A stretch of DNA of 50,130 nucleotides, taken from contig JAKCCV010000024.1 in NCBI GenBank assembly GCA_021838785.1, positions 1-50,130 of the forward strand, read 5' to 3'. Below the pieces are notes generated by a model. It was not told the DNA's origin. It saw only the letters and a program-made list of their open reading frames with translations, and did no database searches. The DNA comes from Acidobacteriota bacterium. GTDB lineage: Bacteria; Acidobacteriota; Terriglobia; UBA7540. Positions 21,061-29,323 of the stretch are shown here, piece by piece. Within the stretch, counting starts at the first letter, position 1. Each line of letters opens with the position of its first letter. The translations under genes were made by a program, and so were the position numbers.

Positions 21061-21089
21061 TTGACAGTATTTCGGCAATCTGGCATAAT
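21061..21089 (+). promoter_or_regulatory. Sigma-70-type promoter of the Fur-family gene
   Basis: A perfect -35 hexamer TTGACA (21061-21066), a 17-nt spacer and CATAAT (21084-21089). Transcription would begin near 21096, inside the palindrome at 21093-21113, so a repressor bound there would block initiation. The leader to the ATG at 21117 would be only about 20 nt. Confidence 0.85.
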
Positions 21090-21092
21090 CTT

Positions 21093-21113
21093 AGTTGCGA
21101 ATTATTCGCAACT
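21093..21113. promoter_or_regulatory. Perfect palindromic operator, probably for the Fur-family regulator itself
   Basis: A 21-bp perfect inverted repeat, half-sites AGTTGCGAAT and ATTCGCAACT around a central T. It overlaps the predicted transcription start directly downstream of the -10 box. Size, dyad symmetry and AT-rich centre suit a Fur-superfamily dimer, so autoregulation is likely. It is not a standard enterobacterial Fur box. The central 11 bp recur at 32116-32126. Confidence 0.75.
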
Positions 21114-21116
21114 GGA

Positions 21117-21596
21117 ATGGTTCTCGCAAAACACTTGAAACAGCGATGTGCCGTTCGGAATGAATTGCGGGCCCACGGCTTACGCATGACGCGCCAACGG
21201 CAAGTGATCGCCGACGTGTTGCAAAAGGCGGGCGAGCATCTGGATGCGGCGGAAGTTTGGCGGCGGGCGCGGCAGCAACTACCGGGTTTGCATTTAGCCA
21301 CGGTGTACCGCTCGCTGGAGTCGCTGAAAAAGCTGGGCATCATTGATGAGTTGGACCTGATGCACTACCGGGGTACGGGTCACTACTACGAAGCCCGCAC
21401 CAACAAGGACCATATTCACTTTACCTGCCAGCGGTGCGGAGGGGTGCTCGAGATTCAAACTTCGCTGTTTGAGAAATTGAAGGCACAAATTGAAGGCCGA
21501 CACGGCCTGACGATCCGCGTGGCCCGGCTCGAGCTGGGCGGAGTGTGTGGGAGTTGCGCCTCGACAGAGGACCAAACGCCCCACGCCGCCGCCTGA
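21117..21596 (+). CDS. Fur-superfamily metal-responsive repressor
   Basis: 159 residues. The winged-helix N-terminal domain includes GLRMTRQRQVIADVLQKAGEHLDAAEVW and LHLATVYRSLESLKKLGII. The C-terminal dimerisation domain has GHYYEARTNKDHIHFTCQRCG (Cys104, Cys107) and GGVCGSC (Cys144, Cys147), the structural zinc site, plus several His for the sensing site. By eye I cannot tell Fur, Zur, Mur and PerR apart. I set the start at the ATG at 21117 because the longer open frame (to 21039) would extend across the promoter and operator. The neighbouring OMP/cytochrome/NRAMP-like unit 185 nt downstream on the same strand is a plausible target, pointing to manganese, iron or a related divalent metal. 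Confidence 0.92.
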   Translation: MVLAKHLKQRCAVRNELRAHGLRMTRQRQVIADVLQKAGEHLDAAEVWRRARQQLPGLHLATVYRSLESLKKLGIIDELDLMHYRGTGHYYEARTNKDHIHFTCQRCGGVLEIQTSLFEKLKAQIEGRHGLTIRVARLELGGVCGSCASTEDQTPHAAA

Positions 21597-21781
21597 GCAC
21601 AACAAAAGAGCGAGCTGGCCCCGGTTGCCGCAACAACCGGGGCCACGAACAACGGGTGACGATGTGGCAAACCGTCTTCGAGGAGTCTTGTATCACCAAA
21701 ACACGGTTGCCGCAAGCCGCCCTCCCTGTCGCCGGGACATTCATGAAAGCATTGCCCGCCTCTCTACGACAAGGTAAGGTT

Positions 21782-22669
21782 ATGTCACAGACCAGGCTGT
21801 CGAGAAGGCTTCTTACGGTTGTAGCGATGCTCCTTTGGAGTGCCCTGGCCTATGCTCAGGAGAGTCCCTACTTCGTGACCTATGATCATTACCTTGAGGA
21901 GCCGGGAAATCTGGAAGTTGAATATTTTTCGACCTTCGGCACACAGCGCCACGGGAACGATTTCATTGCCCCTTGGGCAGAATTGGAATACGGGGTTAAC
22001 GGGTGGTGGACGACAGAGTTTTACCTTGATAGCCAGGGCACCTTCAACGACAGCATCTTGTTTACCGGGTTCCGCTGGGAGAATCGTTTTCGACCTTTGA
22101 CCCTCGAGCACATAGTCAACCCCGTCATTTACATTGAGTATGAGCAGACGAATGGCGCCGACAAAATTCTCAAAGAGGTTGAAGGACATGATGTGGAGGC
22201 GGATTTTGCCCCCTCGAACGCTGCGCTCCGCCGCGAGCATGACCATGAGGTCGAGTTGAAACTGATTCTTTCTAAATCCTTTCACGGCTGGAACATGGCG
22301 TTAAATCCTTTGGGCACCAAGAATCTTTCACCTGACCAGCCATGGGAATTTGGCTATGCGATGGGCGTAAGTCGCCCGCTCGCTTTGGCAGCTTCACCCC
22401 GTGCGTGCAACCTTTGCCCGGAGAATTTTGTCGTCGGGGCCGAAATGTACGGCGGCCTGGGCGATGTGACAAGCTTTGGGCTGCACGACACGTCGCAATA
22501 CCTCGCTCCGGTCGCCGCCTGGAATTTTCCCTCCGGCTGGACGCTGCGGCTATCCCCGGGATTCGGCTTAAACCACAACAGCCATCAATTTCTGCTACGG
22601 TGGGGCTTGTCACGAGAAATTTCCGGCTTTTCCGAGATACTGCGGGCGTGGTGGCAAGGAGAAGATTAA
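21782..22669 (+). CDS. Probable outer-membrane beta-barrel protein
   Basis: 295 residues from the ATG at 21782 (AAGG just upstream), with a clear signal peptide (SRRLLTVVAMLLWSALAYAQES). The mature protein has alternating hydrophobic/polar strands with many aromatic residues, e.g. LEVEYFSTFGT, WAELEYGVNGWWTTEFYLD, VIYIEYEQ and a terminal FLLRWGLSREI, consistent with a beta-barrel. A His/Asp/Glu-rich stretch (VEGHDVEADF... RREHDHEVELKL) and a CNLCPE motif could contact metal or a cytochrome. Not a family I can name. Its stop codon abuts the ATG of the cytochrome c gene. Open frame continues far upstream (to 21545), overlapping the end of the Fur gene, but that part looks non-coding. Confidence 0.75.
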   Translation: MSQTRLSRRLLTVVAMLLWSALAYAQESPYFVTYDHYLEEPGNLEVEYFSTFGTQRHGNDFIAPWAELEYGVNGWWTTEFYLDSQGTFNDSILFTGFRWENRFRPLTLEHIVNPVIYIEYEQTNGADKILKEVEGHDVEADFAPSNAALRREHDHEVELKLILSKSFHGWNMALNPLGTKNLSPDQPWEFGYAMGVSRPLALAASPRACNLCPENFVVGAEMYGGLGDVTSFGLHDTSQYLAPVAAWNFPSGWTLRLSPGFGLNHNSHQFLLRWGLSREISGFSEILRAWWQGED

Positions 22670-23152
22670 ATGCAAACTTCTTTTAGCGCTCTCAGGATAA
22701 GATTCATTCTCAGCCTAGCCACGGTTTCTGGATTCGGCACCATCTTCGTGCAGGGACAACAACCCGCTGTCGCGCTGAGGGTTCCCGCCAAAGTCCTCGC
22801 GCGGCCCAATCCTTTCGCGGGAAACTCGCGGGACCGAGCCGCCGGCCAAAAACTTTTTGAGGAGCACTGCGCCCAGTGCCATGGGGCGACGGCCGACGGT
22901 AGCGCGCGAGGCCCGAGCCTCCTTCGCCTTAAGGTTCAGCGGGTACCGCCGGGCGCGTTGTTCTGGATTTTGAGCAACGGCATCGTCCGGCATGGCATGC
23001 CGGATTGGTCCAACCTGCCCGAGCCGGAACGATGGCAAATTGTGACCTTCTTGAGGTCGCATAAAGCACGTAAGGACCATGACGGCCCAGGAAAGAAACC
23101 GACTCGTTGCCACATCCACTGGGAAATTGACCGTCGAGGACCGTCACTTTGA
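22670..23152 (+). CDS. Exported monoheme c-type cytochrome
   Basis: 160 residues with an N-terminal membrane/signal segment (FILSLATVSGFGTIFVQGQ). One heme c site CAQCH (Cys67, Cys70, His71) is preceded by GQKLFEEHC; Met110 in IVRHGMPDW is the likely distal ligand; PEPERWQIVTFLRSH is the closing helix of class I cytochromes. After about residue 130 there is a basic, His-containing tail. The ATG follows the previous stop codon without a gap, and the stop codon overlaps the TTG of the transporter gene (TTGA), so all three are probably translated as one coupled unit. It would act in the periplasm as an electron carrier. Confidence 0.9.
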   Translation: MQTSFSALRIRFILSLATVSGFGTIFVQGQQPAVALRVPAKVLARPNPFAGNSRDRAAGQKLFEEHCAQCHGATADGSARGPSLLRLKVQRVPPGALFWILSNGIVRHGMPDWSNLPEPERWQIVTFLRSHKARKDHDGPGKKPTRCHIHWEIDRRGPSL

Positions 23153-24402
23153 GCCCTGAAAAGAACCCCCCGAGCCGCGCCCGCATCCTGCTGCGTCGTT
23201 TTCTTGGCTTTCTAGCGGTGCTGGGCCCCGGGCAAATGGTGATGATGGCCGATACGGACGTTGGCAGCGTCATTACCGCCGCCCAGAGTGGAGCCCGCTG
23301 GGGCTATGCCCTGCTGCCACTACAACTTCTGCTGGTGCCGGTTTTGTTTGTCGTTCAGGAATTAACGGTGCGATTAGGCATATTTACGGGCAAGGGTCAC
23401 GGCGAACTGATTCGGGAGCGCTACGGAGCGTTCTGGGGCTGGGTGTCGGTGGGCGGATTGACGATCGCGATTGCCGGGGCGATGGTTTCCGAGTTCTCCG
23501 GCGTTGCGGGCGTCGGAGAATTGCTCGGTGTCTCACGCGCCACGAGCTTGACGCTCGCGGTGGGCTTTTTGCTGGTCGTAGTTTGGGCAGGCTCGTATCG
23601 AAGGGTCGAGCGGATTGCCATGGCTCTCGGCGCTTTTGAATTGGCGTTTCTTTGGGTAGCTGTGAAAGCGCACCCGACCACTTCGCTGGCAGCCGCGTTG
23701 CCGGACACTCCTTGGCATAGCGCCGGCTTTCGATATCTCGCGGCGGCAAACATCGGCGCGGTGATCATGCCGTGGATGATCTTTTTCCAGCAGTCGGCGG
23801 TGGTGGACAAACGCCTCCAGTCGCAGCATCTTCGGGCGGCGCGGTGGGACACAGCGCTCGGCTCCGTGGTCACCCAGATAATCATGATTGCCGTGCTGGT
23901 AACCACGGCCGCCACGCTCGGTGCCGATCACCGCAGGGTGTCACTCACTTCGGTAGGCGAGATTGCCCAGGCGTTGATTCCCTATCTCGGACAGGAAACG
24001 GGCCGACTGGTCTTCGGGTTGGGCATTTTGGGGGCGGGCTTTGTGGCCATTATCGTCACGTCGCTCGCCGCCGCGTGGGGCATCGGGGAAATGACCGGTT
24101 ATAAGCATTCGCTCGAGAATCGCATTCGGGAAGCGCCCTGGTTCTATAGCGTTTACACGATGGCCGTAGTTGGGGCGGCCGTACTGGTGGCCCGCGTGCC
24201 CAACCTGATCGCGCTCAATATAGCGATTGAGGTTATGAACGCCTTGCTTTTGCCGCTGGTGCTCGGCTTTTTAGTTTTGCTGGCGGTGCGCATGTTGCCG
24301 GAGGAGCATCGCCTGCGCGGGGCGCGGCTTTGGATGGTCGCCGCCACCTGCGCCATTACCAGCGGCGTCGGCCTCTGGTGCGCGCTCAGCAGCATTCTCT
24401 GA
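23149..24402 (+). CDS. NRAMP-related divalent metal transporter with altered metal-site motifs
   Basis: 417 residues, about 11 hydrophobic helices, LeuT-type NRAMP pattern. TM1 begins GPGQMVMMADTDVGSVITAAQSG: the canonical DPGN is replaced by DTDVGS (Asp35, Asp37). TM6 has GAVIMPWMIFFQQSAVVD: the canonical MPHN becomes MPWM (Met207-Met210). The fold and general spacing are kept, so it is a transporter of the family, but metal choice cannot be assumed to be Mn/Fe. Start: TTG at 23149, in a 4-nt overlap with the cytochrome stop, with GAGGA about 10 nt upstream. Probably imports a divalent cation across the inner membrane with protons. Confidence 0.88.
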   Translation: MSPEKNPPSRARILLRRFLGFLAVLGPGQMVMMADTDVGSVITAAQSGARWGYALLPLQLLLVPVLFVVQELTVRLGIFTGKGHGELIRERYGAFWGWVSVGGLTIAIAGAMVSEFSGVAGVGELLGVSRATSLTLAVGFLLVVVWAGSYRRVERIAMALGAFELAFLWVAVKAHPTTSLAAALPDTPWHSAGFRYLAAANIGAVIMPWMIFFQQSAVVDKRLQSQHLRAARWDTALGSVVTQIIMIAVLVTTAATLGADHRRVSLTSVGEIAQALIPYLGQETGRLVFGLGILGAGFVAIIVTSLAAAWGIGEMTGYKHSLENRIREAPWFYSVYTMAVVGAAVLVARVPNLIALNIAIEVMNALLLPLVLGFLVLLAVRMLPEEHRLRGARLWMVAATCAITSGVGLWCALSSIL

Positions 24403-24570: not shown

Positions 24571-24984
24571 ATGAACGAACTCGAAGCTTACTTCAAGGGT
24601 CTGGCGGATCGGACGCGGCTTCGACTGATCAACTTGCTTTTACAGGGCGAACGGTGTGGATGCGATCTTCAGCGGTTATTGGGCATCACGCAACCGAACG
24701 TCTCGCGGCACCTGATCTATTTGAAGCACGTCGGGTTGCTTTTGGATCGGCGTGACGGCTTCCGAGTTTTTTATCGGCTGGCGCCAATGGATCAGCAACC
24801 GCTCAAAAGCTTGGTGTCGTTTTTAGCCGCTGCTTTTCGAGACGATCCGATCCTCCGAAACGATCGGCGCCGCTTGAAACAAGCGCTTCGGCAAGGGGCC
24901 TGCGCGGTTCCCTCGACTCCAGCCGCGCCGGACAAATATGCCGCGTTGCAGAAAGGTAAGCTTGTGCGACTGTCGTCAGTGTAG
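24571..24984 (+). CDS. ArsR/SmtB-family transcriptional repressor
   Basis: 137 residues. Winged HTH with FKGLADRTRLRLINLLLQGERCGCDLQRLLGITQPNVSRHLIYLKHVGLL, i.e. the ArsR fold with a Cys-x-Cys pair (Cys29, Cys31) at the alpha3 metal site position known from ArsR/CadC types, and a third Cys in the C-terminal tail (QGACAVP). This suggests thiol-based sensing of arsenite, cadmium or similar. GAGGAG lies 10 nt before the ATG. The TolC/EmrA/EmrB-type operon starts 30 nt downstream, so the protein probably controls it, which would make this a metal- or thiophile-induced efflux system. Confidence 0.93.
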   Translation: MNELEAYFKGLADRTRLRLINLLLQGERCGCDLQRLLGITQPNVSRHLIYLKHVGLLLDRRDGFRVFYRLAPMDQQPLKSLVSFLAAAFRDDPILRNDRRRLKQALRQGACAVPSTPAAPDKYAALQKGKLVRLSSV

Positions 24985-25014
24985 TACGACCCGCGCGAAA
25001 GGTAGGCGTATGCG

Positions 25015-26418
25015 ATGAGAGACGGCTCTCGACTCCTGTCCACAATAGTAGGCGTTTTGCTCCTGGCGACGGCACTGGGCGCTCAGGTACCGGAGTCACA
25101 AAATCCATGGATGGGGAGCGTTCCTTCAGGCCAGGCGTCATCGAAGGTAATCCTGTTATCGCTTGCTCAGGCCATTGCGCAGGGGCTCAGGTCCAATTTG
25201 GGACTGCTGCTCTCGGATGACGCATCGAGAGTGGCGCGCGGTGAGCGTTGGCAGGCACTGAGCCGACTGCTGCCGACGCTTGAAACAGCGACAACCGAAT
25301 CTCAGCAGGAAATCAACCTCCATGCGCTGATTGGCGCGCGTATTCCGCCGGCGCTGCCGGCGATTGCCGGGCCGTTCCATGTGTTCGACGCCAGGGCCAC
25401 CGCCACCGCCGCCCTCTTCAACCTGAGCGCATTGCGGGCGGAGCAGGCTGCGCGGCAAAACGTTCGCGCGGCGACTTACACTTACCGTCAAGCGCGCGAC
25501 ACGATAGTTCTGGCGGTGGGCAATGCCTACCTGATGACGCTAGCGGCGAAGGCGCGAGTCACGGCGGCGCGGGCGGAGGTTCGCACCGCGCAGGCGCTTT
25601 ACGAACTGGCAGCGGACAGAGAACACGCCGGTCTGAGCCCGGAGATTGACACGCTGCGCGCCCACGTTGAACTGAAGGCCCGGCAAGAAAGCCTGCTGGC
25701 CGCTGAAAATGAATACGAGACTGACAAACTGACGCTGGCACGGCTGATCGGCCTGCCTGACGGACAACGCTATCATTTGGTTACCGCGGCACCCTATGCG
25801 CCACTGGAAACCCTGACCTTCGAGCAGGCGGTCGGCCAAGCCTACCTCGAGCGAGGCGACTATCAGGCGGCCCAAGCCGCGGTGAGAAGCGCCGAAGCGG
25901 AGCGCCGCGCCGTCGCCGCCGAGCGATATCCCACCCTGAGCGTCCATGCCAGCGCCGATGAAATTGGTCTGACGCTCGCCGGTGCTCATCCAACTTACGC
26001 CGTGGCGGCCACGGTGCAAATTCCCATCTTTCAAGGTGGGCGCGTGCGGGGCGAATTGCAAGTGGCCGAGGCCCGCCTGCGCCAGCGTCAACAGGATCTC
26101 AGCTCCTTACACGACCAGATCGCTTATGAAATTCGCACGGCGTTGCTTAACCTTAAAACGAGCGCCAGTCAGGTTGCGGTGGCTAGGAGCAACATTCACT
26201 TAGCTCACGCAACGCTTCAACAAGCGCGAGATCGGTTCGCCACCGGCGTCACCGATAACATCGAGGTGGTGGAGGCGCAGCAAGCGGCCGCGCAGGCCGA
26301 CGATGCCTACATTTCCAGCCTGTACCAATTCAATCTTTCCAAACTTTCGCTCGCGCGGGCCACGGGTGTGGCGGAGCGCGACGCCCTGAAGTACCTGGGA
26401 GTTAAAAACCATGACTGA
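25015..26418 (+). CDS. TolC-family outer-membrane efflux channel
   Basis: 467 residues: signal peptide (STIVGVLLLATALGAQ), then two homologous halves of long amphipathic helices and strands. Repeated motifs are LSLAQAIAQGLRSN at the start and ANVRAATYTYRQARDTIVLAVGNAYLMTLAAKARV, then in the second half FEQAVGQAYLERGDYQAAQAAV and ARDRFATGVTDNIEVVEAQQAAAQADDAYI. Forms the trimeric outer-membrane duct of a tripartite pump. Its last 8 nt overlap the adaptor gene. Confidence 0.92.
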   Translation: MRDGSRLLSTIVGVLLLATALGAQVPESQNPWMGSVPSGQASSKVILLSLAQAIAQGLRSNLGLLLSDDASRVARGERWQALSRLLPTLETATTESQQEINLHALIGARIPPALPAIAGPFHVFDARATATAALFNLSALRAEQAARQNVRAATYTYRQARDTIVLAVGNAYLMTLAAKARVTAARAEVRTAQALYELAADREHAGLSPEIDTLRAHVELKARQESLLAAENEYETDKLTLARLIGLPDGQRYHLVTAAPYAPLETLTFEQAVGQAYLERGDYQAAQAAVRSAEAERRAVAAERYPTLSVHASADEIGLTLAGAHPTYAVAATVQIPIFQGGRVRGELQVAEARLRQRQQDLSSLHDQIAYEIRTALLNLKTSASQVAVARSNIHLAHATLQQARDRFATGVTDNIEVVEAQQAAAQADDAYISSLYQFNLSKLSLARATGVAERDALKYLGVKNHD

Positions 26419-27670
26419 ACCCAATGATTTGAAAGGCCAGGCGACCGCCCCGCAGGCTTCACCCGCCGCAGGCGCTGCCGCTAATTCAACCCCGCCGGCG
26501 GCTTCGCCGGAAAAGAGGCGAAGGAAAAAGGTGGCGATCGGGGCGGTGCTGCTATTGGCGGTGGGCGGATGGCTGACGTGGAGATATTACGCGCAGTTTG
26601 CCACCACCGACGACGCCGAGATCGAGGGTTATTTACACCCTGTCAGCGCCCGTATTCCGGGGTATGTGACGCGAGTGATGGTCAACGATACGCAATATGT
26701 CGCCAAGGGCACGGTGCTCGTGCAATTGGACCCGACGGACTATCAGGTTGCCGTGGACTTGGCCAAGGCACGGCTGGCCAAAGCGCAGGCAGAAGCGGAT
26801 GCTGCCTTCGGCGGAGTGCCAATCGCTTCCGTCAGCACCCTGAGCCAGGTACACTCGGCCGAAGCCGACGTCGAGGGTGCCCAAGCAGGGATTTTGGCCG
26901 CCGAAAAACAGTTCCAGGAAGCCGAGGCATGGCTCATCCAAGTGGAAGCCAACAACGTCAAGGTGCAAGATGACTTGGCGCGCTACCGCCAGTTGATCGG
27001 CAAGCGAGAAATCTCTCGGCAGCAGTATGACCAAGCCGTTGCCGCCGCCAAGGCCAGCGCCGCAGCGGTCACGGAGGCCCAGGCCGGCGTTGCCGCCGCC
27101 GGGCAGCGGATTAATCAGGAACGGAGTCGGATGCAGCAAGCCGAGGCCGAGCTACGCAGCGCGCACACTCGGCCGGAGCAATTGCGCGTGACGCGGGCGC
27201 GCGCCGAAGCCGCCGCCGGCGCCGTGGAGGAAGCGGAGGCCGAACTCCACCGCGCCGAGCTTAACCTGCAGTACACCACCATTGTTGCGCCTGCCAGCGG
27301 CATCATCGGCAAGCGCACGGCGGTGACGGGGCAAAACGTTTCTCCCGGTCAGACTTTAATGGTCATCGTTCCCACCAAGGACATCTGGGTGACGGCGAAT
27401 TTCAAGGAAACCGAGCTCAAAGCCATGCGGGTGGGCCAGCCGGTCAAAATCCACGTGGATGCCTACGACCAGGACTATCGCGGCAAAATTGAGGGCATTG
27501 CGGGAGCGACAGGGGTTCAATTCAGTCTGCTTCCGCCGGAAAACGCCACCGGAAATTACGTGAAGGTGGTGCAACGGGTGCCCGTGCGGATCGTCTTTGA
27601 TTCGGGACAGGATCCCGACCACCGGCTGCAAGTGGGCCTGTCGGTCGAGCCGACCGTCCGGCTTCGATAG
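26411..27670 (+). CDS. EmrA/HlyD-type membrane-fusion (adaptor) protein
   Basis: 419 residues. Short cytoplasmic Pro/Ala-rich N-terminus, one membrane helix (KVAIGAVLLLAVGGWLTWRYY), first lipoyl half (TTDDAEIEGYLHPVSARIPGYVTRVMVNDTQYVAKGTVLVQLD), a long Ala/Glu/Gln coiled-coil hairpin (about residues 110-285), second lipoyl half (YTTIVAPASGIIGKRTAVTGQNVSPGQTLM) and the beta-barrel domain. It links the MFS pump to the TolC channel. The start overlaps the TolC gene and GGGAG lies upstream, so translation is coupled. Confidence 0.94.
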   Translation: MTEPNDLKGQATAPQASPAAGAAANSTPPAASPEKRRRKKVAIGAVLLLAVGGWLTWRYYAQFATTDDAEIEGYLHPVSARIPGYVTRVMVNDTQYVAKGTVLVQLDPTDYQVAVDLAKARLAKAQAEADAAFGGVPIASVSTLSQVHSAEADVEGAQAGILAAEKQFQEAEAWLIQVEANNVKVQDDLARYRQLIGKREISRQQYDQAVAAAKASAAAVTEAQAGVAAAGQRINQERSRMQQAEAELRSAHTRPEQLRVTRARAEAAAGAVEEAEAELHRAELNLQYTTIVAPASGIIGKRTAVTGQNVSPGQTLMVIVPTKDIWVTANFKETELKAMRVGQPVKIHVDAYDQDYRGKIEGIAGATGVQFSLLPPENATGNYVKVVQRVPVRIVFDSGQDPDHRLQVGLSVEPTVRLR

Positions 27671-27694
27671 GGTTGCTCGTGAGAGGCGACGCCC

Positions 27695-29323
27695 GTGAAC
27701 GATTCTGCTGAAAACATTCTCCCTTCGCTTCCCTCGCGGAACCTGACGGCGACTTCAGCCATTTCCTGGTCGCCCGCGCACAACCCCTGGCTGATTGCTT
27801 CCGTCGTTGCTCTGTCCGCCTTTATGGAAATGCTGGACGCGAGCATCGCCAACGTGGCCCTGCCGCACATGGCGGGCAGTCTCTCTACCAGCAACGACCA
27901 AGCGACGTGGATCCTCACCTCCTATCTGGTGGCGAACGCCATCATCTTGCCGCTCAGCGGATGGCTGTCGAATACTTTCGGGCGCAAAAAATACTTCATG
28001 CTGTCGCTTCTTCTCTTCACCGGCAGCTCGATCCTCTGCGGCATAGCCCCCAGCCTCTCGGCCATGATCGTTTTCCGGGTGATGCAGGGCGCTGGAGGGG
28101 GCGGGTTGCAGCCGGTCGCGCAGGCCATCCTCGCTGACACCTTCCCTGAAAGCAAGCGCGGCCAGGCCTTCGCGCTCTACGGGATTACCACGGTCTTGGC
28201 GCCCATTATTGGCCCGACGCTCGGCGGGTGGATCACCGACAGCTATTCATGGCGGTGGATTTTCTTTATTAATATTCCGGTCGGCATTCTGGCCTTGATG
28301 CTGATCCAGCAACTGGTCGAGGATCCGCCCTACCTGCGGCGCCTGGCTCGCGGCCTGGTCAAAATTGATTACATCGGCATTGGCCTATTGACGGTGGGGG
28401 TGGCCGCGCTGCAGGTCATGCTCGACAAAGGACAAGAAGATGATTGGTTTGGATCTCACTTTATTCTTACGCTAGCCGTGGTGGCTGCCGTCACGTTGGT
28501 CGCGCTGTTTTTCTGGGAGTGGTACCACGATCACCCGGTGATTGACGTGCGTCTCTTTAAGCACTTCAATTTCCTGACGACCAATCTGATGATGTTCGGC
28601 TTCGGCGTGATGATGTTTGGCACGCTGGTGATGATGCCCCTCTATTTGCAAACGCTGATGGGTTACACAGCAGAAACCGCGGGCTTGGTGCTCTCCTTTG
28701 GCGGGTTGTTTCTCCTGATGGAGCTGCCCATGGTCGGACGATTGCTGGCCCGAGTGCAAGCTCGCCGCTTGGTGACCGTTGGCTGGGCGGCGATGGCCGT
28801 GGGCATGTGGGTTTCCACACGGCAGATGGATACGCTCATCAGTTTTGACGCTGCTTCCTGGGTGCGCGTGCTGCAAGTCATCGGCTTGCCGCTTCTGTTC
28901 GTTCCGCTAACGACGGTGGTTTATGTGGGCCTCCCGGCGGAAAAGAACAACGCAATTTCCGCTCTGATTAACTTCATGCGCAACATTGGCATGAGCTTTG
29001 GCACCTCGATCGTCACCACGATTCTGGCGCGCCGCGCCCAGTTCCATCAACAGGTGTTGGTGTCTCATCTCACGCCTGGCAATGTTTATTCAGCCGCCGC
29101 CCTCCAGCATTTGACCCAGACGTTGTTTCATGCAGGGTTGAGCGCTTCAGATGCGCTCAACCAGGCTTACGCCCGCATCTATCGCGCTGTGATCGTGCAG
29201 TCCACTTCCCTGGCCTACATTGACGCTTATCATGTCTTCTCCGTCGCGGCGGCTGTTCTTTTTCTGCTTTCGTTCTTCCTAAAAAAGAATGAGCCGCGCG
29301 CCCCAAGCGGGCCCATGGAATAA
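27695..29323 (+). CDS. DHA2-family MFS exporter (EmrB/QacA type)
   Basis: 542 residues, about 14 membrane helices. Motifs of drug:H+ antiporters: MEMLDASIANVALPHMAG in TM1, GWLSNTFGRKKYF (motif A), RVMQGAGGGGLQPVAQAI (motif B region) and LYGITTVLAPIIGPTLGGWITD (motif C). GTG start at 27695 with GAGAGGCG upstream. Together with the two preceding genes it forms an EmrAB-TolC-type tripartite exporter, with the ArsR gene as probable regulator. Substrate unknown: hydrophobic drugs, organic acids or metal-chelating compounds are possible. Confidence 0.94.
   Translation: MNDSAENILPSLPSRNLTATSAISWSPAHNPWLIASVVALSAFMEMLDASIANVALPHMAGSLSTSNDQATWILTSYLVANAIILPLSGWLSNTFGRKKYFMLSLLLFTGSSILCGIAPSLSAMIVFRVMQGAGGGGLQPVAQAILADTFPESKRGQAFALYGITTVLAPIIGPTLGGWITDSYSWRWIFFINIPVGILALMLIQQLVEDPPYLRRLARGLVKIDYIGIGLLTVGVAALQVMLDKGQEDDWFGSHFILTLAVVAAVTLVALFFWEWYHDHPVIDVRLFKHFNFLTTNLMMFGFGVMMFGTLVMMPLYLQTLMGYTAETAGLVLSFGGLFLLMELPMVGRLLARVQARRLVTVGWAAMAVGMWVSTRQMDTLISFDAASWVRVLQVIGLPLLFVPLTTVVYVGLPAEKNNAISALINFMRNIGMSFGTSIVTTILARRAQFHQQVLVSHLTPGNVYSAAALQHLTQTLFHAGLSASDALNQAYARIYRAVIVQSTSLAYIDAYHVFSVAAAVLFLLSFFLKKNEPRAPSGPME

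Follow-up and report, generated by a model that had tools for sequence, protein, structure and literature searches.

Non-siderophore iron entry across the Gram-negative outer membrane, and the reduction of such iron in the periplasm, are poorly known. In cyanobacterial reductive uptake, porins act together with the periplasm-facing reductase ARTO and with FeoB, NRAMP or ZIP transporters (PMC7676907). Campylobacter jejuni carries FTR1-P19, an iron uptake operon under a Fur box, whose inner-membrane permease is proposed to work with reductants in the periplasm and whose outer-membrane component is unidentified (PMC6083913). In Cyc2, a single polypeptide with 16 strands and the motif AXPXFAR[QK][TY] acts as an Fe(II) oxidase (PMC8406198). 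Here we describe a locus (21061-24402) within a 50,130-nt stretch of DNA from an Acidobacteriota bacterium (the window; contig JAKCCV010000024.1, positions 1 to 50,130), in which a Fur-family regulator gene precedes genes for an outer-membrane barrel protein, a monoheme cytochrome c and an NRAMP-like transporter. The contig is number 15 in a genome of 3.4 Mb (98% complete) that has acidobacterial metagenome-assembled genomes (MAGs) as close relatives. The pairing of the barrel and cytochrome genes, their control by a Fur box, their membership in a regulon with feoAB and FTR1, and the barrel fold (as a prediction) are all well supported. The four genes are co-oriented:

21117-21596, + strand, Fur-family regulator gene (Pfam FUR PF01475, E 6e-27)
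21782-22669, + strand, outer-membrane barrel gene of an unnamed family, with a signal peptide and 12 predicted strands (AlphaFold2; 41 orthologous loci)
22670-23152, + strand, periplasmic monoheme cytochrome c, class I-like (Pfam Cytochrome_CBB3; family alignment)
23149-24402, + strand, NRAMP-like inner-membrane transporter with a TTG start (PF01566, 228 bits)

The last three genes had been described as fused by a zero-gap junction and a 4-nt TTGA overlap, and both are read in the sequence. The barrel stop codon abuts the cytochrome start codon (TAA/ATG at 22669/22670), and the cytochrome and NRAMP-like genes share positions 23149-23152. Comparison with the sister species G002 indicates purifying selection on all four frames, with dN/dS values of 0.09 for fur, 0.18 for the barrel gene, ∼0.07 for the cytochrome core and 0.035 for the NRAMP-like gene.

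We read the locus as an iron-starvation operon in which the barrel would pass iron, the cytochrome would reduce it and the NRAMP-like protein (elsewhere FeoB or FTR1) would import it, a reading to which we give about an even chance. The proposed route resembles cyanobacterial reductive uptake in its channel entry, periplasmic reduction and Fe(II) import by FeoB or a divalent-ion transporter (PMC7676907). In cyanobacteria, however, the porins are general and distinct from the reductase, itself a general inner-membrane oxidase, whereas here a dedicated barrel and a periplasmic monoheme cytochrome appear to belong to one Fur-controlled transcription unit. Like C. jejuni FTR1-P19, the locus combines a Fur box with an inner-membrane permease and with partners proposed to act as reductants in the periplasm (PMC6083913), but that operon contains no barrel and has thioredoxins in place of a cytochrome; in Acidobacteriota the pair is unlinked to FTR1, and the box is what the two have in common. 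Cyc2, which acts on iron, likewise combines a single heme c with a single outer-membrane barrel (PMC8406198). We rejected membership in the Cyc2 family, as the barrel and cytochrome are separate genes in 39/39 pairs, the barrel model has 12 rather than 16 strands and AXPXFAR[QK][TY] is absent from the cytochrome alignment; Fur-box control is a further difference. Membership in the MtrAB/PioAB/MtoAB group, which combines a decaheme cytochrome with a 26-stranded barrel, was rejected on the basis of the single CxxCH and the 12 predicted strands. Literature searches turned up no description of the present module.

We gathered barrel orthologues (46-94% identity) from relatives, a scan of genome contigs and a draw across the phylum, and collapsed the loci at 95% identity, which left 41 separate non-redundant loci. 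In 39 of them, the barrel gene is immediately followed by a cytochrome gene on the same strand. Spacing was measured for 28 pairs, the source locus included; 20 show a 4-nt overlap and three have no gap. The co-occurrence of barrel and cytochrome that had been predicted is thus borne out, and the two form a conserved unit. A Fur gene adjoins the pair in 8/41 loci, once divergently. NRAMP adjoins it in only two, those of the source genome and of G002, which is of the same genus. Hence, while the original prediction named the gene set correctly, its three-part unit splits in two: the transporter is not a constant partner, the system as first drawn fails outside the genus under the refuting condition originally attached to it, and we rejected a strict barrel-cytochrome-NRAMP triad as a conserved system.

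Neither Pfam nor NCBIfam yields a match to the 295-residue barrel protein at E ≤ 1, and no significant sequence match was found in the PDB. AlphaFold2, supplied with 32 homologues, predicts a 12-stranded barrel (pLDDT 89.9, pTM 0.81), in line with the earlier assignment of this protein as a barrel candidate. The closest folds are those of FapF (Z 21.5), the COG4313 channel (Z 19.7) and KdgM/NanC (Z 19.3-17.5), which are alike in fold with 9-14% identity over the aligned region and no detected sequence relation. The substrates of these proteins are unrelated. We rejected the fold as an uninformative guide to what the barrel carries. Two loops stand out in the alignment and model:

22154-22237, + strand, long strand 5-6 loop, residues 125-152, rich in Asp, Glu and His (probably facing outward, by strand parity)
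22406-22417, + strand, C209-x-x-C212 in the strand 8-9 loop (probably periplasmic, by strand parity)

The C-x-x-C is retained in almost all orthologues, and in the model its loop would lie on the periplasmic side, in the same compartment as the cytochrome. In more distant barrel paralogues (∼30% identity), which stand beside a different cytochrome c, a Met-rich segment replaces the CxxC loop:

G000:C28:4851-5660 (the source-genome copy; L035, L054), L055, L023, L026 and L034, distant barrel paralogues

Such a paralogue and its cytochrome may form a sister module that handles a different metal, for instance copper. Because these paralogues also neighbor a cytochrome c, the barrel-cytochrome partnership may be older than the CxxC-barrel subfamily.

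The cytochrome carries one CxxCH, and its relatives of solved structure are cbb3 CcoP and the bc1/ACIII cytochromes. Two of its sites are invariant:

22868-22882, + strand, CxxCH heme site, C67-A-Q-C70-H71 (invariant in 27 homologues)
22997-22999, + strand, M110 (invariant in the family alignment)

M110 is probably the distal heme ligand. Relative to G002, the core shows a dN of 0.010 against a dS of 0.137, and drift is confined to the signal-peptide and tail regions. In the signal-peptide region (22670-22800) and the C-terminal tail (23066-23149), dN is 0.19, compared to 0.01 in the core. The tail sequence PTRCHIH is common to both sister species and absent from other homologues.

One alternative is that the barrel serves as an iron porin, either general or chelate-specific, and that the cytochrome has a job of its own, for example as an electron carrier required when iron limitation reshapes respiration, the two being joined only because they are needed at the same time. 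The cytochrome does resemble cbb3 and bc1 cytochrome domains, the FapF, COG4313 and KdgM/NanC fold points to no substrate, and Fur regulons include proteins not directly involved in uptake. Yet adjacency of the two genes is near-constant, with overlap, across classes, another cytochrome c likewise neighbors the distant paralogues, and a heme protein is costly at low iron unless it helps to acquire iron. On balance we regard separate roles as unlikely.

The Fur-family protein scores 94.6 bits against PF01475 (cut-off 23.1) in a Pfam profile search, its closest solved structures are Fur proteins, and it carries HxHxxC (DHIHFTCQRC) and a C-terminal CxxC (CGSC), both aligned with solved Fur. A single match was found in the source genome, making this the only Fur-family gene found there. 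Around the gene lie three elements:

21061-21089, + strand, sigma-70-type fur promoter TTGACA-17-CATAAT (consensus scan, 11/12 positions)
21094-21112, no strand assigned, palindrome or Fur box GTTGCGAATTATTCGCAAC (perfect, 19 bp, adjoining the expected transcription start)
21616-21645, + strand, hairpin in the fur-barrel interval (two 12-bp arms around a 6-nt loop, lacking a T-run; stem conserved in the sister species)

The palindrome GTTGCGAATTATTCGCAAC sits directly downstream of the promoter, in line with the promoter and operator proposed earlier for fur. Between fur and the barrel gene there are 185 bp with the strong hairpin, and transcription from the fur promoter likely runs past both into the barrel gene. 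A 12-bp direct repeat, CGGTTGCCGCAA, at 21622-21633 and 21704-21715 resembles Fur half-sites. The hairpin or the repeat is possibly an attenuator or a second operator.

Starting from the palindrome, we searched for the box elsewhere. We fixed the pattern from the source palindrome and the barrel promoters before searching upstream of feoAB and FTR1, and because it was fixed beforehand these searches are independent tests. In 580 kb of locus DNA, TTGCRA-N5-TYGCAA (≤1 mismatch) occurs at 28 sites, 25 of them at the start of a barrel or fur gene. The exact box occurs nine times in 15 barrel-positive genomes, with five sites at the pair and two before feoAB. It is present 300-400 bp upstream of feoB in four (G011, G029, G034 and G053) of 39 FeoB-positive genomes, where ∼0.005 would be expected, and it stands before feoA wherever feoA was read. 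Upstream of FTR1, a box with ≤2/14 mismatches was found in 13 of the 31 genomes read, compared to 5.9% of random stretches, at about 50-180 bp from the FTR1 coding motif; these genomes include the barrel-positive G041, G056, G007, G009, G011 and G018. The box also lies beside fur genes (G034, G021) and upstream of TonB-receptor-like genes (G034, G029). In other lineages (L050, L042, L106, L108, L110), the pair promoter has a box near or equal to the classic TGAAAATNATTNTCA, and in G130 the variant at the FTR1 promoter is nearly identical to that at the barrel promoter. The source genome has three strict matches, one at a clear promoter and two in or beside uncharacterised coding regions; the latter look like chance occurrences.

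Since the box fronts barrel-cytochrome, feoAB, FTR1, fur and TonB-receptor-like genes, we take it as almost certainly this group's Fur box and place the pair in its iron-starvation regulon, a membership that is well supported by sequence comparison. The metal control suggested earlier is thereby well supported, with iron as the metal. In related genomes, then, iron uptake genes appear to form a regulon behind a common box, as expected of a Fur-family regulator.

Several further arrangements were seen. Across L182, L187 and L185, Fur boxes flank a fur gene on both sides and precede TonB-receptor-like genes, which makes these loci helpful in delimiting the Terriglobia Fur regulon. In L180, L188 and L189, an FTR1 permease and then two MacB/FtsX-like permeases follow a Fur box, much like the Campylobacter FTR1-P19-ABC cluster. 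Distant barrel relatives (30-31% identity) in G193 and G157 lie behind a different regulator, beside a second outer-membrane protein, and in G193 FeoA and FeoB come next in the run:

L117:2620-7719 and L118:1-2600, DtxR-type regulator, distant barrel relative and second outer-membrane protein (with FeoA and FeoB in L117)

The run points to a possible outer-membrane partner of Feo and is an independent hint of iron.

We also asked which inner-membrane permease could serve the pair. Neither FeoB nor FTR1 was found in the source genome. Outside its genus, the barrel-positive genomes that were checked have FeoB or FTR1, although the FTR1 match is partial or weak in G054 and G123. FeoB is present in 4/18 barrel-positive versus 25/42 barrel-negative genomes (Fisher p 0.011; p 0.026 in a wider set), with no trend within family f10 alone. 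As this anticorrelation is weak and vanishes within f10, we rejected the pair as a functional replacement of FeoB; an association of the barrel with FTR1 was likewise rejected, FTR1 being common in barrel-negative genomes too. What generalizes is a barrel-cytochrome pair under Fur control, able to work with more than one kind of inner-membrane iron permease.

These permease data bear on the direction of electron flow. Electrons could run the other way, with an iron-controlled cytochrome oxidizing Fe(II) from the barrel, either for handover to FTR1 or for a small respiratory gain as in Cyc2, another combination of barrel and monoheme cytochrome, which oxidizes Fe(II) (PMC8406198). Most barrel-positive genomes that lack FeoB have FTR1, often with the same box at its promoter, which favors this alternative. 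But the source genome has no FTR1 that could be found and pairs the module with an NRAMP, a member of a divalent-ion family; G053, G228 and G318 are barrel-positive with FeoB and without FTR1; and the pair is not Cyc2 (no fusion, 12 strands, no PXFAR motif). Oxidation rather than reduction therefore seems rather improbable to us.

The NRAMP-like protein is closest among solved structures to 7qia EleNRMT (E 1e-46), with MntH at E 2e-12. A/CxxM in helix 6 is a transition-metal signature, and TxxA/T marks the Mg-type NRMT proteins (PMC8806188). The two metal-site motifs are as follows:

23257-23268, + strand, helix 1 metal-site motif D37-V-G-S40 (canonical DPGN; motif alignment)
23758-23769, + strand, helix 6 motif A204-V-I-M207 (canonical A/CxxM; motif definition from PMC8806188)

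Helix 6 thus agrees with canonical NRAMP/MntH, while helix 1 reads DxxS rather than the canonical DxxN. As in EleNRMT, an SLC11/NRAMP-related Mg transporter (PMC8806188), Trp replaces the first helix-6 His, but helix 6 has AxxM, not TxxA/T, and helix 1 has DxxS, not DxxG, so that neither NRMT motif is present. The helix-6 Met is confined to this protein among the four NRAMP-like paralogues of the source genome and, among all NRAMPs read, to this protein and its orthologue; readable homologues elsewhere have Ala or Thr. With EleNRMT as its nearest solved relative and AxxM in helix 6, it has the appearance of an NRMT-type protein whose metal site suits transition metals, and it could plausibly import Fe(II) in a genome in which neither FeoB nor FTR1 was found. 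Unlinked relatives in other genomes are ≤38% identical, save for short same-genus fragments (72% in G003, 55% in G002). The other three source-genome paralogues, at C34:68236-69336, C24:47943-49139 and C24:58905-60140, have Ala or Thr in helix 6 and are possibly Mg-type or of other specificity.

The transporter also invites the idea of a module for Mn, Zn or Cu, with a Mur- or Zur-like Fur protein and a Mn-importing NRAMP. NRAMPs import Mn besides Fe, and members of the Fur family sense several metals. The helix-6 Met selects transition metals generally (PMC8806188). Set against this are the same box before the iron systems feoAB and FTR1 and the presence of only one Fur-family gene in the source genome, and we consider another metal very doubtful.

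Under the iron-starvation reading, events would run as follows. With plentiful iron, Fe-loaded Fur would bind the palindrome over its own promoter and, acting as a repressor, shut off fur and, by read-through, the genes behind it; with scarce iron, the three envelope proteins would be produced together. Iron would cross the outer membrane via the 12-stranded barrel and meet the cytochrome where the barrel opens into the periplasm, possibly at its CxxC loop. Drawing electrons from the respiratory chain, the cytochrome would reduce Fe(III), and the resulting Fe(II) would be imported by the NRAMP; elsewhere in the Acidobacteriota, the pair would supply FeoB or FTR1 instead. More generally, though more tentatively and at somewhat less than an even chance, we propose a dedicated reductive iron gate, in which a new family of outer-membrane channels with its own cytochrome delivers Fe(II) to interchangeable permeases, namely FeoB, FTR1 and NRMT-type NRAMP.

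Several observations weigh against this interpretation. Two barrel orthologues (L046, L051) have no adjacent cytochrome, NRAMP is absent from 39/41 barrel loci, and ∼18 of the 41 have no recognisable box in the 260 bp searched. The sister species G001 (same genus, 90% complete) has no barrel orthologue and neither FeoB nor FTR1, and even this genus can therefore do without the pair; most genomes are MAGs, however, and such absences are provisional. Phylogeny may explain the FeoB-barrel anticorrelation. In addition, the potential of cytochromes c with His/Met ligation is usually high, a constraint on how readily they reduce chelated Fe(III) at near-neutral pH.

Downstream in the window, at 24571-29323, lies an efflux operon, apparently separate from the iron locus, in which an ArsR-type regulator gene is followed by genes for TolC, an HlyD/EmrA-like protein and an EmrB-like MFS transporter.

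The operon NRAMP offers a natural test of how a helix-6 methionine affects selectivity in an NRMT background. The box defines an Acidobacteriota Fur box that can be used to read the iron regulons of the phylum. If the proposal is right, the reductive gate would provide an outer-membrane entry of the sort still unassigned in FTR1-type systems. The locus ties an unnamed barrel family and a cytochrome c to an iron regulator across a major soil phylum, in a role that can be tested.

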